NCBI RefSeq assembly: GCF_003344865.1
Contig: NZ_CP031165.1
Coordinates: 310,001 to 374,000 of the forward strand
Length of the DNA stretch: 64,000 bases
Source of the DNA: Euzebya pacifica
GTDB taxonomy: Bacteria; Actinomycetota; Nitriliruptoria; Euzebyales; Euzebyaceae
Reading direction: 5' to 3'
Part shown: positions 12,082 to 32,206 of the stretch, in pieces
How the letters are laid out: each line of letters begins with the position of its first letter
How positions within the stretch are numbered: the stretch's first letter is position 1
Made by a program: the position numbers and the translations under genes
The notes under the pieces: model-generated
Database searches by the model: none
Seen by the model: the letters and a program-made list of their open reading frames with translations, nothing else
Told to the model about the DNA's origin: nothing

Positions 12082-12151
12082 CCTTCCTCGGTCTTCACAT
12101 TGCTCCCCGGCGCGGGATCCTAGCAGAGTGCGTCTGGCGCACGGAGCCCGG

Positions 12152-12559: not shown

Positions 12560-12668
12560 CAGTACAGTTCCTCCATCGCGAAGTGGTTTCGCGAAACCGT
12601 ACGAACCGCCTCTCGTCGCATCTGACGGATCTCGGGCTGCGCGGGGCACATGGCGTGGAGGACTTGGG
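12560..12668. promoter_or_regulatory. Short divergent intergenic region
   Basis: 109 bp between the small membrane protein gene (minus) and the 69-codon gene (plus). Both flanking genes have their Shine-Dalgarno sequences here (GGAGGA for each), so promoters in both directions are expected. I could not fix -35/-10 boxes by eye. Confidence 0.35.
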
Positions 12669-12878: not shown

Positions 12879-13025
12879 GACGCGTCGCTCGCGCGAGCCG
12901 TCAACAAGCCGACAGTTCAGCGGCGTCGTGAGCCTTATCGGCGGTTGCTCGCAGGACTCTGGGTCGTGGACAGAGCGCGACATGGCGATGGCAGCCCCAC
13001 ACACGGATAGGCGCAGCCGGGGGTT

Positions 13026-14930: not shown

Positions 14931-14943
14931 GATCCGAACGAGG

Positions 14944-15720
14944 TCAGCGCCTGCTGGCCAGAATGAGCGTGATGTCGTCCGATGTCCGGGCCGACACGAT
15001 TGATGACCCGAGGTAGGCGGCCAAGGAAGCCGACAGATCCTCGTACAGGCCCGCCTCGCTTCGATGTCGGATCGGCGGCATCATCTTCTCGAACCACACG
15101 TCTTGCACGGCTCGTTCGGCCATTCGTAAAACGAGGTGCTGGAGTCCATCGCTGAATACGGCGATCTCGTCGACCACATGATCGGTGGTATCGAACTGGA
15201 ACTCCTGTAGGTCCACCTGATGAGTGACGAACGTTGTGGTATTTGCATATTCGCCCTGATGCGGCCAGTGGATCCACGCCCAAATCCCCTCTTCGTCAGC
15301 AGGAGTGACCATTGCCCCATCCCCGACTTGGAAGAACGCGGCACCGGATGGACCGACTACCGTCGCGACGAGAGTGCTCGCTAGATCACGCACTCCAACT
15401 GCGAGCTCCTCGGCCAGCCTTACTGCAGCCTCGTGTACGGCTGTCGCGATCACCAAGCCGGTCTCTCGGGGCCACAACGCCGGGTCACTCTGGGACTGAA
15501 GGAGCTCCCGCGCTACTTTCGCGAAGCTTCGACAAGCCTCTTCGGCCCCGGCATCGCTGTGACTGGCGCTACCGGCCCCGTCAGCCACAGCGGCAATCAA
15601 GATTTCTCCATCAGCGCCCTCGTCGACCTCGCAAAGATGAGCGTCCTGGCACGGGAGATCATTGCGGACGTGGTCGCTCCCGATTGCCGACGCGACCGCA
15701 AACCCCCACCGATTAGACAA
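14944..15720 (-). CDS. PP2C-family protein phosphatase of TerY-P triad
   Basis: About 258-residue metal-dependent phosphatase. PP2C hallmarks are CQDAH near the N terminus, VADGAGS (metal-binding Asp-Gly), a central GDGAMV, VFSDGL, and the C-terminal SDDITLIL. It would reverse phosphorylation by the adjacent kinase, presumably on the vWA protein or an associated factor. The open frame extends to 15759 through a TTG codon; the TTG at 15720 is preferred because it overlaps the vWA stop (TTGTCTAA), giving translational coupling, and because family members start close to the WGFAVAS segment. The start is therefore uncertain by about 13 codons. Confidence 0.82.
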
Positions 15721-16387
15721 TAGCCCAGCCGTCCGGAGTGGCAGGATTGACCAAGGCAATCTCGTCTGTTGGCTGGGACCGTGAGACGCTGCTCATGGAG
15801 TTGGAGAGCCACGAGAACAACTCCTGGAACTGCAGTCCCTTCAACTTCAGCGGGGTTCGAGTGGCGATCTGGCCCAGTTTGCTCATGTCCGCACCCTCGA
15901 CCCCCACGGCGAAGAACGATAGGGAGCGGCTCTTCTCGGCTGCTTGGACCCGCGTCGCAGCGCTCTTCCAAGAGTCCGTCGGCGATCCATCGGTGATGAG
16001 GAAGACCCACGGTCGGTAGTAGGAGATCCCTTGGGATCGATATACGCTCTTGCGGGCATCGACCATGTCGAGCCCCCAAGTGATTGCTTCCCCCATCGGT
16101 GTGGCCCCTGAAGCCCGAAGACGTGGCGGGGTGAAGAAGTCCGGCGTGGTGAACTCAGACTCCACCATCACCGGACCGAATGACACGACGGCGACCTCGA
16201 CGCGCTTGGCAGCCATGGAGTCCGCCATCAACTCGCTCTTGAAGCCAAGAAGCCCTTCGTTGAGTTGGTTGATCGGATCGCCCTGCATCGAACCGGACGT
16301 GTCCAAGAGCAGGAGGCAGGGGCAGCGTGGTTCCGGATTCTCCGCGAACTCGGCTGCGTGGAATGGTTCCTGTTCGAACTCGTTCAT
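15713..16387 (-). CDS. TerY-like von Willebrand factor A domain protein
   Basis: 224-residue vWA protein. The MIDAS metal site is visible as [10 protein letters not shown] (DxSxS), with the supporting threonine in SGATPMGEA and the aspartate in [12 protein letters not shown]. These are the TerY hallmarks. The ATG at 16387 is chosen because AAGGAG lies 8 bases upstream; two earlier in-frame ATGs sit too close to or upstream of that site. First gene of the triad, followed by phosphatase and kinase with overlapping or near-touching junctions. In TerY-P triads the vWA protein is thought to scaffold metal-dependent complexes; the partner here could be the upstream DNA-processing operon (inference). 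Confidence 0.85.
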
Positions 16388-16565
16388 ACTCATCGCTCCT
16401 TGGACTCTGGCCCACGGCATCCCCATGCCTGTTGGCCGACGACGTGCTGCACACGATGTAAACCTGCCCCGACGGTGCAGGGAAGGCTAGCGTGTCTGCC
16501 TGATTCCAGTTCGAGAGCGGCCACTACCGACCTCCCATGGCAGAACCCCAGTGATGTCGGACCTG
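16388..16565 (-). promoter_or_regulatory. Intergenic region upstream of TerY-P triad
   Basis: 178 bp between the sbcC stop and the vWA start, all genes pointing leftward. It holds the AAGGAG ribosome site of the vWA gene near its left end and probably a promoter for the triad, but read-through from the nurA-herA-sbcDC operon cannot be excluded. No clear hairpin terminator was seen. Confidence 0.35.
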
Positions 16566-19500
16566 TCAGTCCAACAGACCCGCGACTGCGGCCATTGCGC
16601 CTGGCTCACCGGTGGCGTCCATCTCGGCGAGTGCCGCGCGTTCGTTGGGGGCCAGCCAGCGGGCTTGGCTTCCGCGGGAGCCGTGGGTGACGGCCAGGAC
16701 GTGGTTGACCTGCTCGGCGACTGCCCGGACGTGGGAGATGACGGCGACCATGCGGCCGCGGGCGGCGACTTGGGACAGTGCTTCCACGGCCGAGTCGAGG
16801 TTGCCCCGGTCAAGGGCGCCAAAGCCCTCGTCCAGCCACAGCGACTCCAAATGGCCGCCGGACCGGGCCATCATCTCGACCATCCCAAGCGCTAGGGACA
16901 GCGACGCCACGAAGGTCTCACCGCCAGAGAGGCTCGCCGGCGACCGGGGGAGCCCCGAGTCATTGTCGATGACCTTCCAAGGGTCGTCCGGGCTCACCAC
17001 CTCTGCGAAGCTGTAGCGACCGGCCGTCATCTCTTCCAGCAGCACCGAGGCGTGCAGCAACAGGTCGTGGGACCTGCGCATCGTCAGCCACTTCGGGAAC
17101 GCCCCCGGGTTCAGCGCGGCCGACAGATCTTCCAGGACCAACCGCTGCTCCTCCAGTCCAGCCGACGCCTCGCGGAGTTGCCGGATCGGCTCGACCCGGG
17201 CCTCGAACGCCTCGGCTTCGTGTTGGGCGATACCGGCCTTGACCTCCGCGTCCTTCTGACGTCGTTCCAGCTCGGCCACCAGTTCCACGTCCCCGCTGGT
17301 CCCGATGGCCTGGCCGACCTCGTCCAATACCGCTCGCGCCACGATCAGGGCCTCGGTCGACTCGTTCAGTCGTGTCACCGCCACCTCGGCCAACCGAGCA
17401 GTTCCGGAGTGGAACGCGGCCACCACCGCCGGCGCCGAATCGGCGGTCACGCCGACCAGGCTGGGCACCTCCACCCCATCCACGCCCAGCGACGCTTGCA
17501 GCCGCTCGAGCTGCTGCCGCTCGCCATCCAGCTTCCGGACGAGGCCCTCCAGCGGCTCCGTCAGCTCACGGCATCGCCGCTGGTCCAGAGCCGTCCGCTC
17601 CTTCTCCAGCTCAGCGAGCTTGGCCTGCAGCCGCAGCCGGGCCGCGGACCGCTCCGCCAGCACAGACTCGCGCTCGGTCAGCTGGGCGGCCGCCTCGTCC
17701 AGCCCGGCCATCTGGGTTGTCGCACCGGGGCTTCCGTGCTGGACGAGGATCTCGAGTGCTGGGGGAATCAGCCCGACCGCCTCCTCGCACTCCTTCCTCG
17801 CCCGAGTCAACGCGGCTGCCGCGCGGGCCTCCGCTGCCACGGCCGCCTGATTGTTCGCAGTAGCTATCGTGGCCGCGGTTCTGGCTGCCTGAGTTGCCTC
17901 CGCCAACTCGCGTCCGGCCGCGTCGTGGGACGTCAACGCCGCGCGAGCAACCTCGGCCTTCTCCCTCAGACCGGTGAGTAGCTCCTCGTCGGACCGGGTC
18001 ACGTCAACCGGCCCGAGAACCGCGACTAACGCCGACTCCGCCGTGCCGACGGCGGCGGTGCGTTGTTCCACCGCCTTGGTGGCCGACTCCAACTGGGCTT
18101 CACCCGACTCGAGAGTGGCGGTCGCCTTGGTCAGTGCGGCGTCGGCCTCCCGCTCCGCCGACACCGCCTTTCGCGCCGCTGCGGCGATCGCGTCATGAGC
18201 AGAGTCCCCCGGAGCTGACCAGCCGTCAGGCAACGGGCGGTGGCAGACGGTGCAGTCGTCGCCAACCGACAGGCCTGCCGCGGCGGCGATAGCGGCGTGT
18301 TCGCGGTCCGCCGACTCCTTGGCTGACTGGGCCCGTGTGGCTTCTTCGTGCGCGGCTTTGGCCGCCGCGTCCGCCGCGTCAACGGCGGACCGAAGCCCGG
18401 CAAGCCCATCCTGCAACCGGGCCGCCGAGGCTTCGGCCGACTCCTGCTCCGCCAGCGCGGAACGCCACGCGCCCAGCCGCTGCTCGGCGGCGTGCACGGA
18501 CGCTTGAGCTTCCTCCACCGCGGTGGTCAGTGCCGCGCGGCCAGCTTCGTGCTGCTCCTGCTGCTCCTTCGCCGCCGCGACTCGCTCGTCGGCATCCGCG
18601 GCCTCGTTGCCCAGCCGGTCGATCTCGGCGCGGGCCTCAACCAGCGCCGAGCCCGCCTCGTCCACGTCAGCTGCCAGCCTGGGCAGCCGGGCGAGAACCC
18701 CTTGGGCCGTCGTCACCTCGGCCACCGACATCCCGTCGTCATCGGCAGGGACCGCCGCGAGTTCTTCCCGAGCGGACGCGGTCACGGTCGCCTGTGCGGC
18801 CTCCGCCTCTGCCAGCTCCTTGGCAACCGCGGACAGTCCGTTGGCCGACGTGGCGAGGCTGTTATCAACGAGCAGCAGCCGCCGGGCGTTCTCAGCCGCC
18901 GTGTTCTTGGCCGACGCCTCCTCCACCGCGGCTACTGCGTCCTTGGCCCGTGCGGTCGTACTCGCGGCCGAGCCGGCGACACTCGTCAGCCGCTCGACGT
19001 CCTCGCGCAACGCGGTCAGGTGCGCGGCGGGGTCCTGCGGGGCGTCGGCCAGCGCCTGCTCGACCCGGCTAGCGGTCGGCACGATGTCCCGGAGCGTTTC
19101 GTCGGCGGCGGCCTTGATGTCGGCAAGCCCCTCGACGCCCCAGACCTGCTCGAGGATCGAAGCCCGAACCCGTGGGTCGTCGGCCACCAGCAGCTGGGCG
19201 AACTGGCCCTGCGGCAGGACCACGGTTCGTTTGAAGGCTTCGTAGTTGAGGCCGATGAGCTCTTGCACCCGGTCGTTGACCGCCCGAACCTTGTCGACGC
19301 CGTCGACCTCCTTGAGCGCCCCGTCCCCCTTCTCCTCCAACCGCACCAGCTCGGCCTGCGCGGCGCCGACCGTCCGGTCGTCGCGGCGGCGCAGGGTCCG
19401 GGTCGCCCGCCACGTCTGGCCGCGCACACTGAACGTCAACACAACCCGGGTCGCCGTCGACGTGTCGTGCATCAACTCCTGGTTGGGTTGACCGGACCAC

Positions 19501-19661
19501 GAGGTGTTGCCGTACAGGGCCCAGCCCATGGCCTCCAGCAGCGAGGACTTCCCCGCCCCGGTATCCCCGATGATCGCCAGATAGTCCCGGCCGGTGAAGT
19601 CGATCGTCTCCGACGCGCGGAAGGACCGCAGCCCCTCCACCGTCAACGTCAGCGGTCGCAT
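16566..19661 (-). CDS. sbcC: SbcC/Rad50-type SMC-like ATPase
   Basis: 1,031-residue Rad50/SbcC protein, ATPase partner of the SbcD/Mre11 nuclease in DNA end processing. Walker A is GDTGAGKSS near residue 35. Long alanine/glutamate-rich coiled-coil arms flank a CxxC zinc hook (DDCTVCHRPLP, near residue 468). The ABC signature SGGETFVASLSLALG lies near residue 911, followed by Walker B/D-loop LWLDEGFGALD. The ATG at 19661 lies 4 bp after the sbcD stop and begins MRPLTLTVEGLRSF, the standard family N terminus; a longer open frame reaching 20054 would run through sbcD. Fourth gene of the cassette nurA-herA-sbcD-sbcC. Confidence 0.95.
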   Translation of the reverse strand: MRPLTLTVEGLRSFRASETIDFTGRDYLAIIGDTGAGKSSLLEAMGWALYGNTSWSGQPNQELMHDTSTATRVVLTFSVRGQTWRATRTLRRRDDRTVGAAQAELVRLEEKGDGALKEVDGVDKVRAVNDRVQELIGLNYEAFKRTVVLPQGQFAQLLVADDPRVRASILEQVWGVEGLADIKAAADETLRDIVPTASRVEQALADAPQDPAAHLTALREDVERLTSVAGSAASTTARAKDAVAAVEEASAKNTAAENARRLLLVDNSLATSANGLSAVAKELAEAEAAQATVTASAREELAAVPADDDGMSVAEVTTAQGVLARLPRLAADVDEAGSALVEARAEIDRLGNEAADADERVAAAKEQQEQHEAGRAALTTAVEEAQASVHAAEQRLGAWRSALAEQESAEASAARLQDGLAGLRSAVDAADAAAKAAHEEATRAQSAKESADREHAAIAAAAGLSVGDDCTVCHRPLPDGWSAPGDSAHDAIAAAARKAVSAEREADAALTKATATLESGEAQLESATKAVEQRTAAVGTAESALVAVLGPVDVTRSDEELLTGLREKAEVARAALTSHDAAGRELAEATQAARTAATIATANNQAAVAAEARAAAALTRARKECEEAVGLIPPALEILVQHGSPGATTQMAGLDEAAAQLTERESVLAERSAARLRLQAKLAELEKERTALDQRRCRELTEPLEGLVRKLDGERQQLERLQASLGVDGVEVPSLVGVTADSAPAVVAAFHSGTARLAEVAVTRLNESTEALIVARAVLDEVGQAIGTSGDVELVAELERRQKDAEVKAGIAQHEAEAFEARVEPIRQLREASAGLEEQRLVLEDLSAALNPGAFPKWLTMRRSHDLLLHASVLLEEMTAGRYSFAEVVSPDDPWKVIDNDSGLPRSPASLSGGETFVASLSLALGMVEMMARSGGHLESLWLDEGFGALDRGNLDSAVEALSQVAARGRMVAVISHVRAVAEQVNHVLAVTHGSRGSQARWLAPNERAALAEMDATGEPGAMAAVAGLLD

Positions 19662-19665
19662 GCCC

Positions 19666-20913
19666 CTAGCCCTCTTCCCCGTCGGTGCTGAACGCCTTGA
19701 GCGCGGTGTCGGCGGCAGTGACCAACTCGGAAGTGCCGAACCCCGCGGTTCGCTCGACCCCGTCGCCCATCGCTCGGCTGAACGCGGCGACCACCGCGGC
19801 GTCGGGGGCGTTGCGCTTGCGGGCGTTGCCGGAGGACCGCCACTCGGCGAACAGGTCCTCGATCGGCGGCGCGTCCCCGGCCTCTTCTGTGGCGGTGATG
19901 GCCTTGACCGGCTGGTTGGCGACCACGTTGGCCAGGTCGAAGATGTCACAGTCGGGCGCCCAGGCGGCGACCAGGTCAGCCAGGTCGGCGATCGGGTCCG
20001 CTGACTGGACCCGGGCCTTGAGCAAGGTCCCGTCGAGCTTGCCGGCCGCGGCATCGGCCTCCAGTTGCTCCAGCGACCCCTCGAACTGGTGCAGCGGACG
20101 ACCGCCGGGCAGTGGCCGCTCCGTCACCCGCACGTCATCGCCCAGCTCGACGATCACGGCGTGCTTTCCCTGAGTCCGTTCACCGAAATCGATCGGCACC
20201 AGCGACCCTGCGTACCGGCCGGCCACAAGTCCTCCGGGTAGCAGCTGCGGGTCGTGGATGTGCCCGAACGCGGAGTACATGGCTGCGCCGAGCGACTCGA
20301 CGGTCGTGGTGTAGTCCTCGCCGACCGTGATGACCTTCTCCGACTTGCCGGGTCGCGCACCGGCGACGTGCAGGTGGGCGGTGTAGGTCACGATCCCCCT
20401 GTTGCCCGCGATCTGCTGGGCTTGTGCGAGCAGGTGAGTGTTGAGGCTGCGGACCCCATCGGCGTAGTTGCCCTCCAGCTTGGCCAGGTCGGCGATCGAC
20501 AGGCTGCTGATCAGGCTCGGCGGGATGAAGGGGACGGCGGTCAGGGCGAACCCGTCGCCGAGCTGCGGGATCTCCAGCACCTCCGGCGAATCGATGAACC
20601 ACAGGCGGCGGGGGTGGGCGATGCCGGCCATGTCGTGCAGCACGCGGAACAGCGCCAGCGAGTCGTGGTTTCCGGCGATCACGACGGTCGGGGCGACCGC
20701 CGACAGCCGGGCGAGGGCGCGAACGCCGAGGCGCATCGGCTCGTACGGCGGCCGGGACGAGTCGAAAAGGTCGCCGGAGTGGACGATCAGGTCTGGCTTC
20801 TCCTCCTGCGCGATATCGATCAGCGCCTTCATGGCGAGCGATTGGTCAGGGGTGCGGTCGTTGCGCCCGAGGCGAAGGCCCAGGTGCCAGTCGGAGGTGT
20901 GCAGCAGCTTCAC
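19666..20913 (-). CDS. sbcD: SbcD/Mre11-type nuclease
   Basis: 415-residue metallophosphoesterase of the Mre11/SbcD family, the nuclease subunit that works with SbcC/Rad50 on double-strand ends and hairpins. The full set of metal-binding motifs is visible: TSDWHLG, HSGDLFD, IAGNHDS, TAHLHVAG and FGHIHDP. The C-terminal third is a capping/Rad50-binding region. The start is a GTG that shares one base with the upstream herA stop (TAGTG), a mark of translational coupling. The link with HerA and NurA resembles archaeal Mre11-Rad50-HerA-NurA end-resection loci more than the usual two-gene bacterial sbcDC operon. Confidence 0.95.
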   Translation of the reverse strand: MKLLHTSDWHLGLRLGRNDRTPDQSLAMKALIDIAQEEKPDLIVHSGDLFDSSRPPYEPMRLGVRALARLSAVAPTVVIAGNHDSLALFRVLHDMAGIAHPRRLWFIDSPEVLEIPQLGDGFALTAVPFIPPSLISSLSIADLAKLEGNYADGVRSLNTHLLAQAQQIAGNRGIVTYTAHLHVAGARPGKSEKVITVGEDYTTTVESLGAAMYSAFGHIHDPQLLPGGLVAGRYAGSLVPIDFGERTQGKHAVIVELGDDVRVTERPLPGGRPLHQFEGSLEQLEADAAAGKLDGTLLKARVQSADPIADLADLVAAWAPDCDIFDLANVVANQPVKAITATEEAGDAPPIEDLFAEWRSSGNARKRNAPDAAVVAAFSRAMGDGVERTAGFGTSELVTAADTALKAFSTDGEEG

Positions 20914-22745
20914 TAGAACGGCATCCCGTCGTCGGAGTCGGGCTGGGCCTGCCCGGCGAGCTTCTCGATGATGTCGGTGGCCACCGTCGCGGTGCCGGCG
21001 TCCTTGGCCTCGTCAGGATTGGTGGCATACGGCGGCCACGGGAACCGGATGGGGACCGGCTCGGGCACGACCGGCTGGGCGACGACCATCGTCCCGGGCA
21101 TGAACCGGGTGGCGCGCTCACGCAGGGTCGGAGAGAGGAACTTGTAGGCGTCGGACTCGCCCGCGTCGAGGCGGCCCGCCACCTTCAGCGCGGCGTTGCG
21201 CGGCAGCGCCGGGTTGACCGCTGAGGCGGCCTGCTGGGCGCCGATCAGCAAGACGCCGAGGGAGCGACCACGCTCGGCGATATCCACCAGCAGCTCCTTC
21301 AGCGGGCTGAACCCCTGCCGTGGGGCGTACTTGTTGAGCTCGTCGAGGACGACGAACCGGAGAGGAAGCCGGCCGACGCCCTGCTTGTCGGCCCACACCT
21401 TGTCCAGCAGCGCACCGACGACGAACCGTTGGGCGTCGTCGTGGAGGCGGGAGATGTCAACGACGTGGATCCGCCCGTTCTCCAGGTCGACAGGGGTGAC
21501 ACCGGTGGAGACGAGCCGGCCGATCCGGCGTCGGAGCTTGGCCAACCGCCGGATGAACGCGCCCCGCGTGCCCATCGCCGAACGGCCGAACCACTCGTTC
21601 TGGGTTTCTTCGTCGGCGTCGGACATCGCGACCAGGTGGTCGATCAGGTGCTCGAAGCTGCGGATGATGGTGCCCGCGGACCCGGGTGCTTGGTCGGGTT
21701 CGCGGCCAGCCAGGCGGTCGGGGTTGTAGCCGGCGTCGGCGGGGGAGTGCTTGAGCAGGACGACGGCGCCCGTCGTGTCGTTCTGCAGTCGGCGCACTCG
21801 GCGAAGCAGTTCGATGCGGACGTGCTGTTCAACGAGGCCGACCTGGGTGTTGCGCTCGTCCTCGGCGGTGAAGCAGAACTGCAGCAGCTGCTGGCGGATG
21901 AAGTCCTCGGGCGTCCAGCCGTAGGGGTGGACCTCGTTGCGGTTGCGGCTGTGGATGTCGGCGATCACGCTGCCGGACTGCGACTCCAGTCGAGGTGCGT
22001 ACAGGCTGACGGACTGGAAGGGGGCGGGGTCGTCGGTACCGAGCGTGGCCCACTGGTCCGGGGCGTCCGGGTGCTCGTCCCAGCGGCTGTTGGCCCGGTC
22101 GATGTGGAGGAGGTCCTCGCCCTTGGTGTTGAACACCAGCGCCCGTGTGCGGTTCCGCTCCGTTCGTCCGCCGAGCAGGTCGATGCCGGCATCGGTTTCG
22201 AGCAGCTGGTAGAGGAGGAACAGGGCATAGGAGGTCTTCGTGGCGACGCCCGAGACCCCGGAGATGGAGACGTGACCGCCAGCGCGTCCGTCGACGAACC
22301 GCATGTCGGCGTGGACAGGCCGACCCCCCATGTCCAAGCCGATCGGCAGCTTGGCGTCCATCTGGTCCTCGAACAACGCGAGCGCGCGAAGGTCGCCGTC
22401 CGATCGGTGGACTGCAGAGCCGGCGTTGGGTGCGACGAAGGTCTCGGGGAAGACCCGAAGGAGCGTGACCTCGGCACGGCGAACGTGCTCGGCTGGGAGG
22501 ATCCGGTCCGCGACGCGGGCGGTGTCGGAGGGAAGGTCTGCGCCTTCCAGCCGGCTGAAGAGCTCGGTGACGATCCCGAAGTGGACGACCTCTTGTCCGC
22601 CCGGGAGGGTCGTCGGGATCGCGAGAAGTTCGTCGAGCTGAACCAACGCGTCGTCTTCGAGGACGACATGGATACGACGCGACGAGCTTTCTTGTGAGCC
22701 GTCGACGAGGCCGATGGGCGGGGTGGTGGGCTGCGGGATGTCCAT
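20913..22745 (-). CDS. herA: HerA-like hexameric DNA-translocase ATPase
   Basis: 610-residue FtsK/HerA-superfamily ATPase. The Walker B motif is FVVLDELNKYAPRQG near residue 463, followed by IAERGRSLGVLLIGAQQA, the sensor region typical of HerA/DUF87 proteins. The P-loop is unusual: SGVSGVATKTSY near residue 162, where the glycine before Lys-Thr is replaced. The N-terminal 140 residues would match the HAS-barrel position. The gene sits between nurA (5-bp gap) and sbcD (1-base overlap). In archaea HerA pumps DNA for the NurA nuclease next to Mre11-Rad50; the same teamwork is inferred here. Confidence 0.85.
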   Translation of the reverse strand: MDIPQPTTPPIGLVDGSQESSSRRIHVVLEDDALVQLDELLAIPTTLPGGQEVVHFGIVTELFSRLEGADLPSDTARVADRILPAEHVRRAEVTLLRVFPETFVAPNAGSAVHRSDGDLRALALFEDQMDAKLPIGLDMGGRPVHADMRFVDGRAGGHVSISGVSGVATKTSYALFLLYQLLETDAGIDLLGGRTERNRTRALVFNTKGEDLLHIDRANSRWDEHPDAPDQWATLGTDDPAPFQSVSLYAPRLESQSGSVIADIHSRNRNEVHPYGWTPEDFIRQQLLQFCFTAEDERNTQVGLVEQHVRIELLRRVRRLQNDTTGAVVLLKHSPADAGYNPDRLAGREPDQAPGSAGTIIRSFEHLIDHLVAMSDADEETQNEWFGRSAMGTRGAFIRRLAKLRRRIGRLVSTGVTPVDLENGRIHVVDISRLHDDAQRFVVGALLDKVWADKQGVGRLPLRFVVLDELNKYAPRQGFSPLKELLVDIAERGRSLGVLLIGAQQAASAVNPALPRNAALKVAGRLDAGESDAYKFLSPTLRERATRFMPGTMVVAQPVVPEPVPIRFPWPPYATNPDEAKDAGTATVATDIIEKLAGQAQPDSDDGMPF

Positions 22746-22750
22746 GAGTC

Positions 22751-23704
22751 CTAGGGGGTCTGAGCGTTGAGCTGGAGTACGGCCGCGCGAACGGCGCGAA
22801 GTGCGAGGGCCGGGTTGCCTCCGACGCGGTGGAGGTGACGCTCCAGCCCCGCGATCGGCGTCAGGTTCACCGGTGCGCGGGGGTCACGATGGGGTGTTGA
22901 GGCGTAGCCCGGAAGCCATGCGCTGGCCTGTTCGAGGGTCTGTTGCGCGGTGCTGAGGCCGGCGAGCGCGGGCACCTCGATCCGCACGATGCCTGCCCAG
23001 GGGGACGCCCACGGGCCGCTGTCGCCGATCCGGAGGTAGCAGGCGAACGTGTCGGCGCCGATGGCGAAGATGCTGGTGCGTTGTCCGGGCTTGAGTTCGG
23101 GCACGCGGGCCCAGTGCTCGGGTGCAAGCATGCGACGGTGATGCGTCTTCACGTAGCCGATGACCGGTGTGCTTCGACTCTTGCGGATGTTGCTCAGGGG
23201 ACCGTCGAGGACGGTGAGCCACCCGTTGTCACACAGCATTTCGCCGAGCTTGCCTTCGGCGTCGCGCATCGCCCGCTGGAGTCGGTTGCGGGCGTCGTTC
23301 ATGTCCCCCGACACGGCGAAACCTGTCCAGCTCCACCCCTGCGACTGGGAGGGCAGGTCGATGGGGTAGCCACCGCACATGATGCTGACGCGTTCATGGG
23401 TGACGTAGTCGATGCGCAGGGGTGCATCGACCATGCCCAGCACGGCTCCTGTCGCCCAGCACCCGGCCAAGCCGGGCGTGACGGTGCCATCCGACTCCAT
23501 ACGGGTGAGTCGGGCCTCGGTGAGCATGGTGCCGTCCACGAACGCGATGCCGTCGGGCGGCCCGCACGGGGGCGGAGTGGTTGCGGTGAAGCTCCCGTCG
23601 CCCTCCACGATGTCGCACTCGACGTCCGCGGGTCCTTCCTGACCTGCGTTGAACGCAGCCCCGTAACCCACGTCGAACGGTTCGACGCCGTACAACCCTG
23701 GCAA
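22751..23704 (-). CDS. nurA: NurA-like nuclease
   Basis: 317-residue protein identified as NurA-like from two acidic motifs, IAFVDGTMLTEARL (Asp near residue 57) and WLTVLDGPLSN (Asp near 167), followed by VIGYVKTHHRRML with the conserved lysine near 186. This is the RNase H-like arrangement of NurA 5'-3' nucleases. The start is a TTG with AAGGAG 8 bases upstream. It is the first gene of the operon and directly precedes herA, the usual partner order. Overall similarity to characterised NurA proteins could not be measured; the call rests on motifs plus neighbours. Confidence 0.78.
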   Translation of the reverse strand: MPGLYGVEPFDVGYGAAFNAGQEGPADVECDIVEGDGSFTATTPPPCGPPDGIAFVDGTMLTEARLTRMESDGTVTPGLAGCWATGAVLGMVDAPLRIDYVTHERVSIMCGGYPIDLPSQSQGWSWTGFAVSGDMNDARNRLQRAMRDAEGKLGEMLCDNGWLTVLDGPLSNIRKSRSTPVIGYVKTHHRRMLAPEHWARVPELKPGQRTSIFAIGADTFACYLRIGDSGPWASPWAGIVRIEVPALAGLSTAQQTLEQASAWLPGYASTPHRDPRAPVNLTPIAGLERHLHRVGGNPALALRAVRAAVLQLNAQTP

Positions 23705-23844
23705 TGCTCTCTCTCCTTCTGCTCATGTGGATACTGATGCGAGCATGCCGAGTCCATCTCGTCACATGTGACGCCACAACCCTATCGGGTTCGCAGGTCT
23801 TCCATTCGTGGCGCCGTGCGAATTCGCACGGCGCCTGGAGCGAT

Positions 23845-26157
23845 CTAGCCCCAGTGATCGCGTTGGTAGTCGATCATGTCGTCGCCGTGGAGCTGCTTCG
23901 TCGCGTTTCCCGTCCTGACCCAGAACTCGGTGGGTGATCCGCCTCCCTGATGGGGTTTGGCGAAGACGGGCTTGCCGGACGCCGCAACCGAAACGATGCA
24001 GACGTCGCGGCCCTCGGCCTCCTCGAAGTGGATTCGCACAGTGGCAGCCGTGTGCACCGACAGGTTCGCGTCGAGCACCTGTCGGAGGAACAGCTCGTAG
24101 CCGTCTCGGTTGGCCTTGCTGCCGAGCGTCTGCATGTCCAAGTCGAGGCCGATAACGTTTCCGTCGTCCTCGACCCCGACGAGCAGATTTCCACCCTCCG
24201 CGTTGAGGAACCCACAAACTGTCTTGACGATGACGTGCTCCATCTTCTTGTCGGCTTGACCAGCGCGAACGTTCCAGCGTGCGGTCGACTTGAACTCCTG
24301 CGTCTGCGACTCGCCGATGGTGATCATGTCGGCCAAAGTGGTGGAGGGGCTCGAGTGGGACCGCTCCTCCCACAGCCGCTCGAACCCGTCTCGGACTACC
24401 TCCGCGATAAGCGACCTCCGGCGCTCCAGGAACGTCATGTAGTCAAGTTGCTCCCAGCCCACGGGTAGGGCGTGCCAATAGGCCTGCCGCTTCACTCGCT
24501 CCGGTTCCATGGCCTCAGTCATCGCAGGCCAGTAGACGACCGGATCGTCGGCGCTGATGGTTGCGTTTTCGGGCCAGTCGAGGAACGCCATGTTGGCGAT
24601 GGCGTTCACGCGACGTGCGCCGCTGACACCTTCCTTCCCGAGGAAGGCCTTCGGGAACAGGTGGTGGCGTTCGATGGAACGTGGAGCGGTGACGTTCGGG
24701 TCCAGCAGCTCGCGGATCCGCAGGTCGCTGAACAGGGCCTCGGCGTCGAGGAGATTGAGCGAGGCCCAGTACGCGAAGAGGACTGGCGAGCGCGCAGAGG
24801 AAGTGTCCAGACGATTGGGTAGAGAGATCTCCCAGTAGTCCCGGGTGAAGTTCGCCCGAACGATGCGGTCGAGCTCGCCGCAGAAGGCGTCTGCGTCGCC
24901 TGGGTCCAGCGCCGCGACGCGCCCGAGGTCTGCCTCGATCTGGCTCTCCGGCGACGAGGTGTAGCGGCCAGTCGTGTGGGACATGAAGAACCACCTGGCG
25001 ATGACGCCGCGCAGTCGCTTGTGATCCAGCCCGAAGTCCCTCTTGCCGATCAGCCAGAGGATGTAGGTGAAGACGACCGCGTTCTCCGACGTGATCATTC
25101 GCCGGCTGCGAAATCCAGCGTGGGTCAGGCACTTGAGGAATTCGTGCCAGTTGGTCAGGTCGAGGACCTCGTCCTGTGCGTGTCGGAGTTCGTCGAACTG
25201 TTCGTCACGCCTCTCCTCAGACACATCGCCGGTCTCGAGATCCTTGCCTCGAAGGATGTTGTAGACGTGCTGCAGTCGGCCGCGCCGGAACGCAAGACCG
25301 ATTCCAGCGCGGAGAAGTTGGTCGGGACTCGGGTCGATGAATGGGTTCTTCGGTGAGGGCCCCTGAACGCCGGGGTCGACAGCATCGCGGCAGAACTGCT
25401 CGAGCTGACGACGACCCTTCTCCCAGTGCACCGACATCAAGGTGAGGATGAAGTCGGCTTGGTTCAGCTTGACGCCCTCGGAGTTGATGCGAACGAAGAT
25501 CTCTGCGACCTGCCCCTCGTCGGCCGCTGCGTTCAGCTCGATGACCTGAAAGCGAAAGTTCTGCAGGTCGTAGACGCGGTCGATCCTGTCCTCGAGTGCG
25601 TCCTCGTCTGCCTCGGTCAGATCGCCGTCCCGAGCCTCGGCGAGACGAGCGAGGAATCCCCGGACGGTGGGTCGATACCCGTTGTTCCACAGCGCAGTGA
25701 TGTCCGGTATGAACTCTGGGTCCTTCTCGATGGCCGCGTCCGTCACCTCGAAGGACTCGTCGCTCGGTCGGAAGGCGATACGAATGCGCTTCTCCTGGAA
25801 CGTCTTGGTCAGGACTGCCTGGCCGGTGAGGACCGCGTAGAGGGACGTGAGACGTTGCTGACCATCGACGATCAGCATCTTCGCCACACGTTCGCTGTCG
25901 CCCCCACCCACCTGTCGGGTACCGACATCGGCGCCGGTCTCCCAGAACATCAGCGTGCCGACTGGATAGCCGCGGTAGAGCGAGTCGAACAAGTCGCGGG
26001 TCTTTGCCGAGGACCAGACGAATGGCCGTTGGATGTCAGGAAGCGCGATGTTTCCGTGCTTGATGTCCTCGACCAAGTGGGTCAGGGAGTAGCCGGTGTC
26101 GCGGTAGAGCGTGGGGGTCAATGGGGGGCCTTCGGAGAAGCTGGGCGGGTACTGCAT
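23845..26157 (-). CDS. DUF262/DUF1524 (GmrSD-like) protein fused to AlbA_2 domain
   Basis: 770-residue multidomain protein. The N-terminal DUF262 module carries IALPDIQRPFVW and IVDGQQRLTSLY (near residue 97), the DGQQR signature of GmrS-type NTPases. A DUF1524-like His-Asn nuclease region follows near residue 494 (ERHHLFPKAFLG, then NAIANMAFLDW). The C-terminal 160 residues form an AlbA_2/Schlafen-type domain (ESQTQEFKSTARWN, NAEGGNLLVGVEDDG). GmrSD enzymes are type IV restriction systems that cut modified DNA; the AlbA_2 fusion may add nucleic-acid binding. It stands alone, 140 bp upstream of nurA and divergent from the radical SAM cassette. Function as a defence effector is inferred from family. 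Confidence 0.87.
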   Translation of the reverse strand: MQYPPSFSEGPPLTPTLYRDTGYSLTHLVEDIKHGNIALPDIQRPFVWSSAKTRDLFDSLYRGYPVGTLMFWETGADVGTRQVGGGDSERVAKMLIVDGQQRLTSLYAVLTGQAVLTKTFQEKRIRIAFRPSDESFEVTDAAIEKDPEFIPDITALWNNGYRPTVRGFLARLAEARDGDLTEADEDALEDRIDRVYDLQNFRFQVIELNAAADEGQVAEIFVRINSEGVKLNQADFILTLMSVHWEKGRRQLEQFCRDAVDPGVQGPSPKNPFIDPSPDQLLRAGIGLAFRRGRLQHVYNILRGKDLETGDVSEERRDEQFDELRHAQDEVLDLTNWHEFLKCLTHAGFRSRRMITSENAVVFTYILWLIGKRDFGLDHKRLRGVIARWFFMSHTTGRYTSSPESQIEADLGRVAALDPGDADAFCGELDRIVRANFTRDYWEISLPNRLDTSSARSPVLFAYWASLNLLDAEALFSDLRIRELLDPNVTAPRSIERHHLFPKAFLGKEGVSGARRVNAIANMAFLDWPENATISADDPVVYWPAMTEAMEPERVKRQAYWHALPVGWEQLDYMTFLERRRSLIAEVVRDGFERLWEERSHSSPSTTLADMITIGESQTQEFKSTARWNVRAGQADKKMEHVIVKTVCGFLNAEGGNLLVGVEDDGNVIGLDLDMQTLGSKANRDGYELFLRQVLDANLSVHTAATVRIHFEEAEGRDVCIVSVAASGKPVFAKPHQGGGSPTEFWVRTGNATKQLHGDDMIDYQRDHWG

Positions 26158-26308: not shown

Positions 26309-26644
26309 ATGGGCGATCTGCATTTGGGTGGATCCAAGGTCTCGCTGCGGGCGCACGCGCAGAGGGACGGACGGATCCTGCTCATCGCTGAAGCCACCGG
26401 CGAGGTGGTCCACACGTTCGAGGACCACGCCGAGGGGATGCAGTGTCTGACGAGCTTGGCCACGGCGTTGACCAGCCCCGATGCACGGACTCGCACACGG
26501 GTTGAACGCACGAGTCGCGCCCAGACCCTTCAGGACGACGGGGACGGTCGGGCCTACCGCGTTGAGGACATCCGACGGGTCCCTGCTGAGCGATCCCAAG
26601 GGCCCCTCCGAACCGTTCCCGACGGGGCTGCCCATGACTGTTGA
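26309..26644 (+). CDS. Hypothetical protein, first gene of radical SAM cassette
   Basis: 111-residue protein with no recognised domain. The N-terminal half (VSLRAHAQRDGRILLIAEATGEVVHTF) looks like a short beta-rich fold; the C-terminal half is charged and Arg-rich. The ATG at 26309 is preferred over one at 26186 because GAGGGG lies upstream at a suitable distance and the longer version would extend into the divergent promoter region. Its last codons overlap the start of the radical SAM gene by 11 bp, suggesting an operon. Function unknown. Confidence 0.6.
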   Translation: MGDLHLGGSKVSLRAHAQRDGRILLIAEATGEVVHTFEDHAEGMQCLTSLATALTSPDARTRTRVERTSRAQTLQDDGDGRAYRVEDIRRVPAERSQGPLRTVPDGAAHDC

Positions 26645-27512
26645 GGGGACAAACCGCGCGGACGAGCAACTGTCGCTCTTGGGAATGGAACAAGGGTCGG
26701 AAGGCCCCGAAGAGCTTGGCGGCGCACGGATTGCCTACAAGGACACGTCGACAATCCTCACGCGGGCCAGCGGGTTCATGTCCGACTACGACTTCACGCT
26801 CAACCCCTACCGCGGATGTGCGTTCGGTTGCCCCTACTGCTACGCCGCCTTCTTCACGCGGGACACGGCGGAGCAGGACTCCTGGGGACGTTGGGTGGAG
26901 GTCAAGTCCAACGCACTCGCGAAGCTGCGTCGCATGCGCACGCCTCTGGAAGGTGCCCGCATCTACATGAGTAGCGTCACCGACCCCTACCAGCCCATCG
27001 AACGCCATCTCCAACTGGTCAGATCACTGCTCGAGGAGCTCGTCAATCTCCAGCCGCGACTGGTTGTCCAGACCAGGAGCCCGCTCGTCACGCGTGATGT
27101 CGACCTACTCGGTCAGCTGCGGACAGTCCGCGTCAACATGACGGTGACCACCGACGACGACGAGGTTCGGCAGGCCTTCGAACCTCGGTGCTCCCCCATC
27201 GATGCGCGGTTGCGTGCCATCGCAGAGGTTCACGAGGCGGGACTCCCCGCCTCGATCACCATGACTCCTCTGCTGCCAGTCGCCGATCCGACGAGCTTCG
27301 CGCAACGCCTCCTGGCGACTGGAGTCACACATTTCGTCGTGCAGCCGTTCCACACCGGTCGCAGTCGGTTCGTGGCGGGGACCGGCAAAGCGGCGCTGGC
27401 CATGGTCGAAGAACGGTCGTGGACCCAGGAGCGCTACCGAGAGACGGTCGAGGTCCTGCGGGCACTACTACCGACACTGGACGAGGGACGGGAGGGGTTC
27501 GCACCAGCATGA
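26634..27512 (+). CDS. Radical SAM protein (SPL/Rv2578c-like)
   Basis: 292-residue radical SAM enzyme. The 4Fe-4S cluster motif CxxxCxxC is visible as GCAFGCPYCYA near residues 61-71, preceded by FTLNPYRG, as in the spore-photoproduct-lyase/Rv2578c group. SSVTDPYQPIE and later TMTPLLPVADP fit the barrel of that group. The reaction is not predictable; relatives include DNA-photoproduct repair enzymes and uncharacterised proteins. The ATG at 26634 begins shortly before the preceding stop, and its own stop overlaps the next gene start (ATGA). Three consecutive coupled genes imply one transcript. A nucleic-acid modification role is inference. Confidence 0.85.
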   Translation: MTVEGTNRADEQLSLLGMEQGSEGPEELGGARIAYKDTSTILTRASGFMSDYDFTLNPYRGCAFGCPYCYAAFFTRDTAEQDSWGRWVEVKSNALAKLRRMRTPLEGARIYMSSVTDPYQPIERHLQLVRSLLEELVNLQPRLVVQTRSPLVTRDVDLLGQLRTVRVNMTVTTDDDEVRQAFEPRCSPIDARLRAIAEVHEAGLPASITMTPLLPVADPTSFAQRLLATGVTHFVVQPFHTGRSRFVAGTGKAALAMVEERSWTQERYRETVEVLRALLPTLDEGREGFAPA

Positions 27513-29896
27513 AGGACGACCGGATTGTCGAGCTTCGAGGCGCCCTCGCGCAGGCAATCGTCAGGGGATGCCGGGAGCTCTTCGGAGGACGCCGCTGGTC
27601 ACGATTCGATCTGGCCCGCAGCCTGGAGGAGCTCTGGCTGCTCAGCCGGGGTGAGGACTGCTGCTACGACCGGCCAAGCATCGGGCTGAACTACGCGCTC
27701 TGGTACCAAGGGCGACGAGTCCAGGACGTGCTCCGCACGGTGGGGCCGTCGTGGGGCGACCGCCCAGTCGACACCATTGTCGACCTCGGTGCCGGAACCG
27801 GGGCGACGGCATGGGCGCTGGCGGTGGCGATGACTGGTGGACTCTCGGTCGGCCACCCCCGTGTAGTTCTGGTAGACGGCAGCCCGCCCATGTTGCAGGC
27901 GGCAGAAGCCCTCTGGGAGAGCCTGCAGCGCGACACCACCTTCGGTCCGGCGGCGCGTCGAATAGAGATCACGTTCGAGTGCACGACCTGGACCCGGCCC
28001 CCGTTCAGCGCCCCTGGTGCGGAGTGCATCGCCTCGTACCTCTTCGACCACTCGAGCCGAGCACGTCTCGGCGAAGTCGCTTCCGCCTTCGACCGAGCAA
28101 CCTCGACACTCGGTGTCCGACGGGTTCACCTGCTCTCAGCCAACGGCAAGCGGCCTGTTCTGGACGCGGTCGTCACGCGGTTGGGCGGTCATGGATGGGT
28201 TCCCCGCCCGGCTTCGCAGCACCCGCCATGGTGGACAGGTGCTGTTGAGGGCCTGGGAGATGCGCGTGAAGCAGTGCTGGCTGGCGTGCCGACCGATCTT
28301 CCGTGGCGGAACAAGGCCCCATCCTTCGATGGGGATTCCGTCGTCGCCACCCGGTTGGATCGGGAGGAGTTGGCCGTCGCCCCCGACCATCCTGTTGCTC
28401 CCTTCCAACCCGATCCCGCACAGGAACGAGCCTGCATCCCGGACGGCCGGCTGACGCTCGTCGTGGGGGCCGCAGGTTCCGGCAAGAGTCGCGTGCTCGT
28501 CGAACGACTCCACCGGACGCTCGAGACCAGTCGTGATGCTGCAGAGGTTCTCGTCACCACGTTCAACATCGACCTGCTGCACCAGCTGGGTCGCTGGTTC
28601 GCCGAGACGATCGATCCGACCGAGTGGGAGCGCCGCAAGGCCTGTGATGGTGACTTCACCTTCAGTGCGCGACATGACCTGCTGTCCCGACACCGTGTGC
28701 GGTTCCTGAACTGGGACAAGGTTCCGACGAGGCTCTTCGGTCAGAAGGGAAACGTCAACATGGACAGCGAGCTGCCGCTCGAGCGGAGGGTCCAGCAGCT
28801 GGCCGCACAGAACGGGTGGTCGCTGGACGAACCGGGCAACCGGACCGCCCTGCAGCCACAGTTCCTCCTCGCCGAGTTGCACAGGGTCATCTGGGGGCTG
28901 GATGCCAGAACGCTCGACGACTACCTCCGAGTGAACCGCGTGGGACGGCTGCTCCCGCTGCACGGCTTCCTGCGTCGGCGAGTCTGGGACGTGGTGATGG
29001 GCCCGGGGCACCCAGAAACCTTCAGTCACCGACGTATTGCGATCTCGCCGCTCGCCCAGCCCAAGGACGTCTTCGACCACGTGTTCATCGACGAGTGCCA
29101 GGACTTCACGCCTGCCGACTTCACGCTCGCTGCTCGGATGGTCGCGGATACGAGGAACCTCGTCGCGGTAGGGGACTCCGCTCAGTCGATGCATCTTGGT
29201 CCCGCGTATCGCCGACCGGGCCAGATGCCAGGCGCGAACGGACAGCGGCGGCTCTGGAGTCGGCACGAGCTGGACGCAACCTACCGACTGCCGCTCCGGC
29301 TGTGCGAGGCGATCATTCCGGTCGCACGGAAACTCGGGCTCGCTCGCGGTCAGACGCTCGCCGACGAGGTGGACCTTCTCGACACGGTCGACTTGCGGGC
29401 CGTCAGCAGCGCGCTCCTCGGAATGCGGCCGGTCGTCCTGGCCGGAACGGACGACGAGATCGTCAGTCAGCTGGCCGAGGTTCTCGCGGAGTACGAGCCG
29501 CTGTTCCATCAACGCGACGGAGCCGGGATCATCACGTTCGCTGACGGACGGCCCGTGCCGGAGCGCCGAATGGTCGAGCAGGCGATCCCCTCGTCGTGCA
29601 CGGCAGAGTTCCGTTCGATGCGTGCGATCAAAGGGCTGGAACGCCCGGCGGTGGTCTGGACCACAGGACTCGAACTGCCTACTCACGAATCCGCAGAACA
29701 ATGGATCTACACCATCCTCACGCGTCCCACCGCGCTGCTCGTTGTCGTGCTGTCCGACTTCATGGACCAAGTCGCCACGGACGTCATTGCGTCCCTCGAC
29801 CCTCGGCGCCTCATCCCGTGGACACCTGACGCAGAAGCAGCGCTGCGAACGATCCGTGACACAACTACGACCCAACCAGTGCCAACGGCCGGTTGA
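27509..29896 (+). CDS. SAM-dependent methyltransferase fused to UvrD/Rep-like helicase
   Basis: 795-residue two-part protein. The N-terminal part has a Rossmann methyltransferase motif IVDLGAGTGATAWALA near residues 89-104 and a following acidic VVLVDGSPPML. From about residue 310 a superfamily 1 helicase core begins: Walker A VVGAAGSGKSRVL, a motif II HVFIDECQDFTPADF near 524-538, motif III-like VAVGDSAQSMHLG, and a C-terminal RAIKGLERPAVVW. The ATG overlaps the radical SAM stop by ATGA. A frame open back to 27188 overlaps the radical SAM gene and is rejected. I know of no characterised protein with this pairing; a linked modification and unwinding step on nucleic acid is inference. Confidence 0.85.
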   Translation: MKDDRIVELRGALAQAIVRGCRELFGGRRWSRFDLARSLEELWLLSRGEDCCYDRPSIGLNYALWYQGRRVQDVLRTVGPSWGDRPVDTIVDLGAGTGATAWALAVAMTGGLSVGHPRVVLVDGSPPMLQAAEALWESLQRDTTFGPAARRIEITFECTTWTRPPFSAPGAECIASYLFDHSSRARLGEVASAFDRATSTLGVRRVHLLSANGKRPVLDAVVTRLGGHGWVPRPASQHPPWWTGAVEGLGDAREAVLAGVPTDLPWRNKAPSFDGDSVVATRLDREELAVAPDHPVAPFQPDPAQERACIPDGRLTLVVGAAGSGKSRVLVERLHRTLETSRDAAEVLVTTFNIDLLHQLGRWFAETIDPTEWERRKACDGDFTFSARHDLLSRHRVRFLNWDKVPTRLFGQKGNVNMDSELPLERRVQQLAAQNGWSLDEPGNRTALQPQFLLAELHRVIWGLDARTLDDYLRVNRVGRLLPLHGFLRRRVWDVVMGPGHPETFSHRRIAISPLAQPKDVFDHVFIDECQDFTPADFTLAARMVADTRNLVAVGDSAQSMHLGPAYRRPGQMPGANGQRRLWSRHELDATYRLPLRLCEAIIPVARKLGLARGQTLADEVDLLDTVDLRAVSSALLGMRPVVLAGTDDEIVSQLAEVLAEYEPLFHQRDGAGIITFADGRPVPERRMVEQAIPSSCTAEFRSMRAIKGLERPAVVWTTGLELPTHESAEQWIYTILTRPTALLVVVLSDFMDQVATDVIASLDPRRLIPWTPDAEAALRTIRDTTTTQPVPTAG

Positions 29897-30028
29897 GCCA
29901 GCGAGCATCCCCGGATGCTCCCCGAGTCGAAGGACACCAACCACGTTCTAAAGAAATCGACGTTTCGGACCGACGGTCGTTGTATTGGTCGGTGGAAGGG
30001 GTCCGCCGGGTTGGGAACTGGAGGGAAC

Positions 30029-32206
30029 ATGTCGCAACTCATGGCATACCGAGGCTGCTCTCGGCTGGAGTACCGGAACCAGAACATCAAGCTGCTCCGA
30101 GGGCTGGAGGGGGAACGAACTCGGTCGAGCTACCGAACGGTTTGGCTCGGCGACAACGTTCGAGATCTCCTGCGCCAAGATCCCAACCCGGTTGTGATCG
30201 CGGGGCTTGTCGATCGAGCGCAGACCCAGGTGCTTCCACTTCGACAGATGATCGTCATCGATCACGAGTTCACCGGCGACGTCCTGCGTCTCACGTTCGA
30301 GCTGGCCTCATACATCTCTGTGGGGGACGGCGGTCCCGTGCCGTTGACATCGTGGGCCGCCGGCCGCCCCGCTCCTCCAAGGTGCTACCTGTCGACCTTG
30401 GAGAACCCCGCGTTGCCCGTCCGGGTGCTCCGGGATCCCGAGGTGAGCCAACGCTGGAGGCAGGCGGTCGATTTCCTGGCCGCGTCGTGGGACTTCTCGT
30501 CCACCGGGTTCTTCCGGCTACAGGCGCCCGGGGCCGGTCTAGTCGGGCACGCCCGCGGCCCCGTTCTGGAGGCTTCGGAAGGGTCTCGAAGCTCGGTCCG
30601 ACTCGAGTCCTACAACCCTCACCTCCCCGAGGAGACATGGAGCGCGATGCGACTTCGGGTGGCAGGGAGTGGGAGCTTGGTCGAAGTGGAGGGCGGGGAC
30701 GTCCATCTGGACCGCGATGGCTTCATCGATCTGTCGCTGCGGCCCATGGAAGAGGGTCCAGGACAGCTGCAGATCCGGGTCGACCCGGACCCGCAGTTCT
30801 CCACCTACATCCCACTGACGGTCAAGGCCAGCCGTGACGTGACACGCAGGCATCACAAGACCGTCATGCTCGGGCGCGAGTGGGAACGCTGCCTCGATGG
30901 TCTTCGAACGACCTTGGATGATCGCACCACACTTCTGTCGGTGCTGAACCAGCTGGCTCAGGTGTTCCCGGACAGCGCTCCTCTCCAGCAACACCGAGGT
31001 CGCGTTCTGTACGACCAAGAGCGTTTCGTCGAGGCGAGGGAGGCCCTTGATCGATCCTTGGCGCTGCGCGAGGACTCTGCAACGGTGGCCTACAACCTGT
31101 TCGCGGCGCTCAAGCGTGGTGAACGCGCCGCATCAGCAGAGCTGCTCGGACGGCTGAATCTGTCCGTGCACAGGTTCTTCGAGGAGCTCCTTCGGATTGT
31201 GAGTGAACTCGACGAGTCGATGGCGTTGCACGTCGTCGAGGTCGGGTTCGACCTGTTCGACGACGACAAGCGGCATCGGTTGATTCGCTCTGCGGCAGCG
31301 GTCGTCCGCACCGAGTCCGGAGTCGTTCGGTTGGGAGATCTTTGGGGCATGTCGGCTCCTCTGGACGCACTCCGGTACGTCCACGAAGTCGCCGCCGACC
31401 AGTCCGACTGGCACCGTGCTAGCTGCCTGGTCGTCGAGATGGCTGAACGGATCGGCGGACATTCTGTTGCGACGGGCCATGCTCGCCGCATCGTGCGTTG
31501 GCGAGGCGGTGCTCCCGCTGATGCGCTGGCGTGCTGGCACGCCTACGGACGGTCGATTCGCGATCCACGCGAGAGAACTGCCGTGCTGCTCGACAACGCC
31601 CGTGGCGTCGTTGCAGACCACCCAGGAGCACCCGAGGGGATCGAGTTCGCACTCCTCGCAGCAAGTCGAGCTCTCGACTTGGGGCAGATAGAAGTTGCCT
31701 CGCAGGCCCTCCCCATCGCCGCACACCACATCGCGGTCGGCGGCTTCACCGGAACCGAGGTTCAGGGTCGTCTCGACGCTCTCCGGGTCTCTCTGGAGGC
31801 CGCACTCGCGCAGTGGACTGTGGTGGAGGACGCGACCGAAGCCCGACGCCGTGACCTGTCGGTGCGACTGCGGCCGTTGCTGAGCGGTCGCACTCTGGCG
31901 ATCCTCGGCAGCCCGACCGCTCGAGCCGACGTGGACCAGATTGCGGCAGACCTCGGCGTTCGGGTTCTGTCCTTCCCCAGCACCGTGGAGAACCCGGTGG
32001 ATGAACGGCGTCTCCGTGCGCTCTCACCACAGGGGCTGATCGTGGTCGCACTCTGGGAGCACATGAATCACCTCAAGGCACCCACGAAGGAGTGGTTGAA
32101 GCAGTACGACGTCCCGTTCCTCCAGATTCGTGGCACTGGGGGGTTGTTGATCGAAGAGCTTTGGGAGCGATTGGGGCGCGATGGCGTCCCTCTGGCGGTT
32201 CGTTAA
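30029..32206 (+). CDS. TPR-like protein with DUF2325-like C-terminal domain
   Basis: 725-residue protein of unknown function. The N-terminal half shows no recognised domain (YRGCSRLEYRNQNIKLL). The middle is helical and TPR-like (DQERFVEAREALDRSLAL). The C-terminal 100 residues resemble DUF2325: RTLAILGSPTARADVDQ, later LIVVALWEHMNHLKAPTKEW and VPFLQIRGTGG, in which a conserved basic/aromatic pattern sits at the end of a Rossmann-like fold. The ATG at 30029 is chosen for the adjacent GGAGGG; an in-frame ATG at 29915 would add 38 residues without such a site. It lies 132 bp after the helicase gene, same strand, and is probably in the same operon or under a close second promoter. Confidence 0.65.
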   Translation: MSQLMAYRGCSRLEYRNQNIKLLRGLEGERTRSSYRTVWLGDNVRDLLRQDPNPVVIAGLVDRAQTQVLPLRQMIVIDHEFTGDVLRLTFELASYISVGDGGPVPLTSWAAGRPAPPRCYLSTLENPALPVRVLRDPEVSQRWRQAVDFLAASWDFSSTGFFRLQAPGAGLVGHARGPVLEASEGSRSSVRLESYNPHLPEETWSAMRLRVAGSGSLVEVEGGDVHLDRDGFIDLSLRPMEEGPGQLQIRVDPDPQFSTYIPLTVKASRDVTRRHHKTVMLGREWERCLDGLRTTLDDRTTLLSVLNQLAQVFPDSAPLQQHRGRVLYDQERFVEAREALDRSLALREDSATVAYNLFAALKRGERAASAELLGRLNLSVHRFFEELLRIVSELDESMALHVVEVGFDLFDDDKRHRLIRSAAAVVRTESGVVRLGDLWGMSAPLDALRYVHEVAADQSDWHRASCLVVEMAERIGGHSVATGHARRIVRWRGGAPADALACWHAYGRSIRDPRERTAVLLDNARGVVADHPGAPEGIEFALLAASRALDLGQIEVASQALPIAAHHIAVGGFTGTEVQGRLDALRVSLEAALAQWTVVEDATEARRRDLSVRLRPLLSGRTLAILGSPTARADVDQIAADLGVRVLSFPSTVENPVDERRLRALSPQGLIVVALWEHMNHLKAPTKEWLKQYDVPFLQIRGTGGLLIEELWERLGRDGVPLAVR

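Follow-up and report, generated by a model that had tools for sequence, protein, structure and literature searches.

A UvrD-type helicase with an Rsm22-like N-terminal domain, and its radical-SAM partner: a candidate mobile defence module in Euzebya pacifica

What might a predicted S-adenosylmethionine (SAM)-binding domain be doing in front of a UvrD-like helicase? The question is raised by a gene of Euzebya pacifica that encodes a 795-residue fusion protein and lies at 27509-29896 on the forward strand of the stretch analysed here, hereafter the window (64,000 nucleotides, positions 310,001 to 374,000 of contig NZ_CP031165.1). We put at roughly 0.6 the probability that this gene and the radical-SAM gene directly upstream of it form a mobile defence module of two genes that counters phages or other invading elements, and in which a radical-SAM enzyme works with a UvrD-type motor carrying a SAM domain. 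A role in defence as such, judged from gene context alone, appears quite likely. We favour this reading because of the obligate pairing and translational coupling of the two genes, their defence neighbours and the contrast of these with control loci, and the mobility, patchy occurrence and purifying selection of the pair.

The initial annotation had described a single protein, not two genes, in which a methyltransferase is joined to a UvrD-like helicase and whose frame is coupled at its start, and this description holds, with the methyltransferase as a predicted fold. The frame translates without an internal stop, and the motifs VDLGAGTG, GAAGSGKS and FIDECQDF lie where they had been placed, at residues 91-98, 320-327 and 526-533. 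The start codon shares an ATGA (27509-27512, forward strand) with the stop codon of the upstream gene at 26481-27512, an overlap that couples the two genes and resembles the junctions at 17 other loci, where the genes either overlap or are separated by no more than about 30 nucleotides. Pfam recognises UvrD-helicase (2e-13) and UvrD_C_2 (residues 706-747) in the fusion, together with a Methyltransf_25 match at residues 90-196 that falls below its own cut-off (5e-4).

A survey for the same fusion and for split versions supports the single gene further. A protein encoded on a Runella plasmid aligns to the fusion over 98% of its length at 26% identity, and 84,980 species genomes, scanned from the family alignment with DNA patterns of the N-terminal domain only and thus with no bias towards fusions, yielded 17 relatives, giving 19 distinct loci with the window and Runella included. 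A genome scan with the window protein as single sequence had found no relative, because members are merely 25-38% identical. The same architecture recurs at all 18 further loci, so that the fusion is real, and chance or a faulty assembly did not create the frame; 16 of them have it complete and unbroken, which rules out two genes misread as one. The two incomplete loci are L021, which ends with its contig after the Walker A region, and L044 of Niabella ginsengisoli, where frameshifts interrupt both genes (9108-12351) through decay or sequencing error. No split version was found, every locus being fused as far as it is readable, and a profile of the N-terminal domain found no stand-alone relative of it in 395 Bacteroidia genomes.

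The upstream radical-SAM gene, which the earlier reading had missed, is an obligate partner at the fusion loci, as it lies directly upstream on the same strand at 19 of 19. Clustering of all flanking proteins left only these two families common to all loci, which rules out a conserved third gene. In the window, the partner (26481-27512, forward strand) has 343 residues as listed, and the alignment suggests that its real start is probably downstream, at about 26634-26680. It matches Pfam Radical_SAM at 3.7e-16, and the cysteine motif CX3CX2C (C113, C117 and C120 in the window protein) is invariant in 18 of 18 aligned partners. The closest named families, all sharing this motif, are PA0069 (1.2e-36), rSAM mobile pair B (rSAM_mob_pairB, 1.2e-31) and Rv2578c (4.7e-25) of NCBIfam, but the matches remain far below the curated cut-offs, and the paired group stands apart: in 395 Bacteroidia genomes, three proteins matched it at < 1e-120, while common paralogues reached 1e-43 at best. 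Profiles of spore photoproduct lyase (SPL) likewise matched the partner below cut-off (Pfam SPL 0.029; NCBIfam photo_TT_lyase 0.02, other 0.092), and we describe it as SPL/PA0069/Rv2578c-like. Partners from 17 other loci share 47-61% identity with that of the window, whereas the fusion is far less conserved.

The helicase half of the fusion, residues ~300-780 (28406-29848, forward strand), is of the UvrD type of superfamily 1 (SF1), as the Pfam match, a PDB profile search, Foldseek and motif conservation agree. With the family profile, PcrA was the best PDB match (3e-18), followed more weakly by UvrD and Rep; the full-length model of the fusion, with a predicted local distance difference test (pLDDT) score of 77.5, matched UvrD, Rep, PcrA and, lower down, GajB of Gabija. 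The complete SF1 motif set (Q motif, Walker A, DExQD, GDxxQ and motifs IV-VI) is conserved throughout the family, and can be followed in the window protein from Q305 and Walker A (320-327) through TTFN (350-353), DECQD (528-532) and GDxAQ (555-559) to YRLPxR (592-597), KGLE (708-711) and YTxxTR (734-739).

The N-terminal domain, residues 1-290 (27509-28378, forward strand), is predicted to adopt the class I SAM-binding methyltransferase fold, so that the suspicion of a methyltransferase fold stood up to structure prediction. AlphaFold2, run on residues 1-290 with 17 family members, returned a model (pLDDT 91.1, predicted template modelling score 0.91) with the strand and helix order of the Rossmann-like seven-strand fold and four helices in front. 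The top structural matches are all class I SAM-dependent methyltransferases, led in both Foldseek and VIA-align by human METTL17 (Z 19.3-18.7) and yeast Rsm22 (Z 17.6-17.3), which cover approximately residues 1-290; the best of them, 8csp_7, superimposes 242 residues of model positions 6-290 at a root-mean-square deviation of 3.9 (Z 19.3), and ChlM comes next at Z 15.1. The invariance of D92-L-G-x-G-x-G98 and of the acidic D123 after strand 2 in 18 members, which leaves motif I (D92, G94, G96, G98) intact, makes SAM binding plausible. Further conserved features are the signature D50-x-C52-YDR55 ... Y62-x-LWY66-xx-RR70 in the helices, D123-x-SP and SYLFD (176-180). Together, sequence and structure prediction show intact ATPase/helicase motifs, SAM motif I and the radical-SAM cysteine triad across the pair; the methyltransferase assignment is one of predicted fold, and catalytic activity is putative.

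How close is this domain to Rsm22? METTL17 and Rsm22 (PF09243), assembly factors of the mitoribosomal small subunit that have bacterial members, share with it the class I fold including the N-terminal helices, a DLGxGxGAxxWA motif I and, following strand 4, a motif of the SY(L/V) type. For this kinship the predicted fold is stronger evidence than the hhalign comparison with bacterial Rsm22 sequences (E 5.5e-6, probability 86%), a weak similarity because the value covers a single comparison and mostly motif I. Unlike METTL17 and Rsm22, however, the domain is fused to a helicase, sits in a defence and not a ribosome context, and is devoid of the four-cysteine iron-sulphur region (CPHxxxCP...WCHF in bacterial Rsm22), C52 being its sole conserved cysteine. 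Because this region is absent and none of the 16 members scanned matched the Rsm22 Pfam model at E <= 1, the modelled domain is best called Rsm22/METTL17-like in fold and not a member of the family.

The pair is patchily distributed and appears to move. Two of the 19 loci belong to Actinomycetota, one to a metagenome-assembled genome (MAG) of Phycisphaerales and one to a MAG labelled Gammaproteobacteria, whose pair shares 91% identity with the Flaviaesturariibacter pair and may reflect a wrong label or a recent transfer; the remainder are Bacteroidota. The fusion occurs in 2 of 396 genomes of the window's phylum and in 1 of 395 Bacteroidia genomes, and is absent from three genomes of the window's genus; phage records and IMG/VR contigs held no family member. 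The Runella copy sits on the conjugative plasmid pRUNSL02, a relaxase-like gene lies near the Dyadobacter copy (L034), and the island in the window has a G+C content of ~62-69% over most of 12-32 kb, against ~70-73% after 32 kb. Both halves of the fusion are under purifying selection: the ratio of non-synonymous to synonymous substitution rates lies around 0.03-0.07 in each of them and also in the partner, a rough figure from the closest relative pairs only (L039/L036 and L038/L030), with synonymous sites near saturation.

It is the surroundings of the pair that make the case for defence. Pfam annotation identified recognisable defence genes in the flanks at 10 or more of the 19 loci, the flanks being unclear or short at L021, L023, L029, L030, L035, L039, L042, L043 and L044. 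In Flavobacterium urumqiense (L037), the pair lies within a bacteriophage exclusion (BREX) operon in the order PglX-like, GmrSD, pair, PglZ, BrxL. Elsewhere it is accompanied by BrxL and a kinase/FHA gene (L038), McrBC (L031), AAA_21 with AbiV and PD-(D/E)XK genes (L033), a type I restriction-modification system (HsdR, S and M; L034), GmrSD (L032 and L036), an N6 methylase with AAA_15 (L040) and a TOTE conflict system (L041), and in the window by NERD-kinase, kinase/PP2C/VWA, SbcC/SbcD, HerA-like, NurA and GmrSD-AlbA genes. At a common threshold of E <= 1e-15, 91 flanking proteins from 12 pair loci matched 222 PADLOC families, compared with 9 for 94 proteins from 12 control loci, namely housekeeping radical-SAM paralogue loci of the same class; the PADLOC models are redundant, so that this ratio is not a count of systems, and the loci were chosen non-randomly with a single control group, yet the direction is clear. 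No known anti-phage system in PADLOC (2023) was matched by both genes at system level: the fusion was hit through its helicase motifs or motif I only, most closely by the short UvrD helicases C3a187 (NERD+UvrD, 2.4e-11) and GajB (6e-11), and the radical-SAM protein by GajA only (0.024).

In the proposed module, the helicase probably acts on the nucleic acid of an invader. The motor would load on it, unwind it or move along it, and thereby bring the SAM-binding domain and the radical-SAM enzyme to their target; the latter, with or without the methyltransferase domain, might then chemically alter a base or another group, leaving the invader unable to replicate or exposed to neighbouring nucleases. 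The least certain part of this scheme is its effector step, covalent modification of nucleic acid, which we advance tentatively. Here we speculate further, as a bolder and rather doubtful version, that the motor with its Rsm22-like domain and the radical-SAM enzyme jointly modify the invading nucleic acid, or cross-link it, by radical chemistry. If true, this would be an unprecedented modification that combines two kinds of SAM chemistry in one effector, and the system would belong to a defence class not described so far. The radical-SAM enzymes known from phage defence are mainly viperins, which would make a second, helicase-based type interesting; bacterial Rsm22/METTL17-like domains would, moreover, gain a function beyond ribosome assembly. 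In any case, what had looked like an odd domain order becomes a compact and testable two-gene module, sporadic and mobile, which lies in defence islands of several phyla and which none of the libraries searched recognises.

Several observations weigh against the defence module as we describe it. Association with defence genes is not the same as function. The (D/N/S)PP(Y/F/W) motif of DNA amino-methyltransferases is present in the first 320 residues of 0 of 18 aligned members, and with this catalytic motif missing a DNA N6-adenine or N4-cytosine methyltransferase is ruled out. The N-terminal domain may be a non-catalytic binding module; we are cautious here because METTL17, its nearest fold, keeps the features of a class I methyltransferase yet did not methylate the rRNA region that it contacts (PMC10790355). 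Finally, the radical-SAM enzyme extends beyond the pair and can have a role outside it, since of the three close matches in Bacteroidia one is the paired gene and two are homologues that stand without a fusion. One of these is solitary and adjoins the housekeeping gene metG (L090, 9389-10246, reverse strand); the contig of the other (L091, 111-995, reverse strand) ends 110 bases downstream, where a fusion partner is possible.

Among other explanations, the one that survives best, while still unlikely, is a repair or modification-reversal unit, in which the helicase would open the DNA and an SPL-like radical-SAM enzyme would undo either a lesion or a phage base modification there, with the SAM domain as scaffold, be it to unmask modified phage DNA for neighbouring restriction systems or to mend DNA of the cell itself. 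Repair is the classic role of UvrD-type helicases, the partner falls within the broad SPL-related radical-SAM group, and several pairs have nearby genes for GmrSD and McrBC, whose target is modified phage DNA. However, the SPL match is weak and the nearest named families, PA0069 and rSAM_mob_pairB, are without known function, and neither such rarity nor the concentration in defence islands would be expected of a repair unit. We consider even less probable a translation or ribosome module whose Rsm22/METTL17-like domain binds rRNA or tRNA while the helicase and the radical-SAM enzyme remodel or modify it, either as a defence that arrests translation or as protection from a neighbouring toxin. 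The lead of METTL17/Rsm22 (Z 17.3-19.3) over the next fold and the similarity to the bacterial Rsm22 profile speak for it, and several radical-SAM enzymes modify rRNA or tRNA; against it, the helicase half resembles the DNA helicases PcrA, UvrD and Rep as well as GajB, and the cysteine cluster of Rsm22/METTL17 is missing. The least likely explanation, a selfish or mobile-element pair that gathers in defence islands as insertion hot-spots, would fit the plasmid and relaxase contexts and the sporadic distribution, but no integrase, transposase or replication gene is common to the loci, the L037 pair lies inside an operon-like BREX locus and selection on both halves is strongly purifying.

Compared with known systems, the proposed defence module appears to be a new combination of familiar parts, as helicase defence systems and pairs of a radical-SAM enzyme with a partner are both known already. 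All SF1 motifs are shared with UvrD, PcrA and Rep and with the short UvrD helicases of defence systems (GajB, NERD+UvrD); unlike in the latter, the helicase here follows a methyltransferase-fold domain and has a radical-SAM partner in place of a GajA, NERD or nuclease gene. A GajA-like gene (AAA plus TOPRIM), which Gabija has next to its helicase, is not common to the loci, where the constant neighbour is the radical-SAM gene. The three-Cys-motif partner TcmP (TIGR04474) and DUF5131 likewise seem to form a two-gene unit of a radical-SAM enzyme and a seemingly methyltransferase-like protein, but TcmP has no helicase and DUF5131 is a different radical-SAM family (0.065 match to the partner). That the N-terminal domain is itself a TcmP is ruled out (hhalign probability 1%, E 0.054; TIGR04474 absent among NCBIfam matches at E <= 0.1). 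No description of the fusion with its radical-SAM partner was found in the open-access literature, an absence that is weak evidence. TcmP occurs in 21 of 149 genomes of the window's phylum, with a DUF5131-like radical-SAM frame near 9 of 12 TcmP loci examined (L119-L130), and the two represent another widespread and little-studied radical-SAM pair.

Directly downstream in the window, beginning ~18 nucleotides past the fusion, lies a gene for a 763-residue TPR protein (29915-32206, forward strand; TPR matches weak only), which we leave out of the unit because it has no homologue at other pair loci or in 40 related genomes. Directly 5' of the pair, four genes for proteins of ~310-324 residues are mutually unrelated except those at L033 (8062-9021) and L038 (8096-9028), which encode homologous proteins of ~310 residues that are 39% identical, end in a hydrophobic C-terminus and match DUF413 weakly. 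In the window, the reverse strand upstream of the pair carries a long defence-like run (7765-26157) that includes a NERD and kinase protein of 1438 residues, HHH-kinase, PP2C and VWA proteins, SbcC/Rad50-like and SbcD/Mre11-like proteins, a HerA-like ATPase and NurA. At its end, a 770-residue protein (23845-26157, reverse strand) fuses the GmrSD N-terminal domain to a Schlafen AlbA_2 domain. The SbcCD-HerA-NurA array within this run resembles the archaeal Mre11-Rad50-HerA-NurA repair set in a bacterial version.

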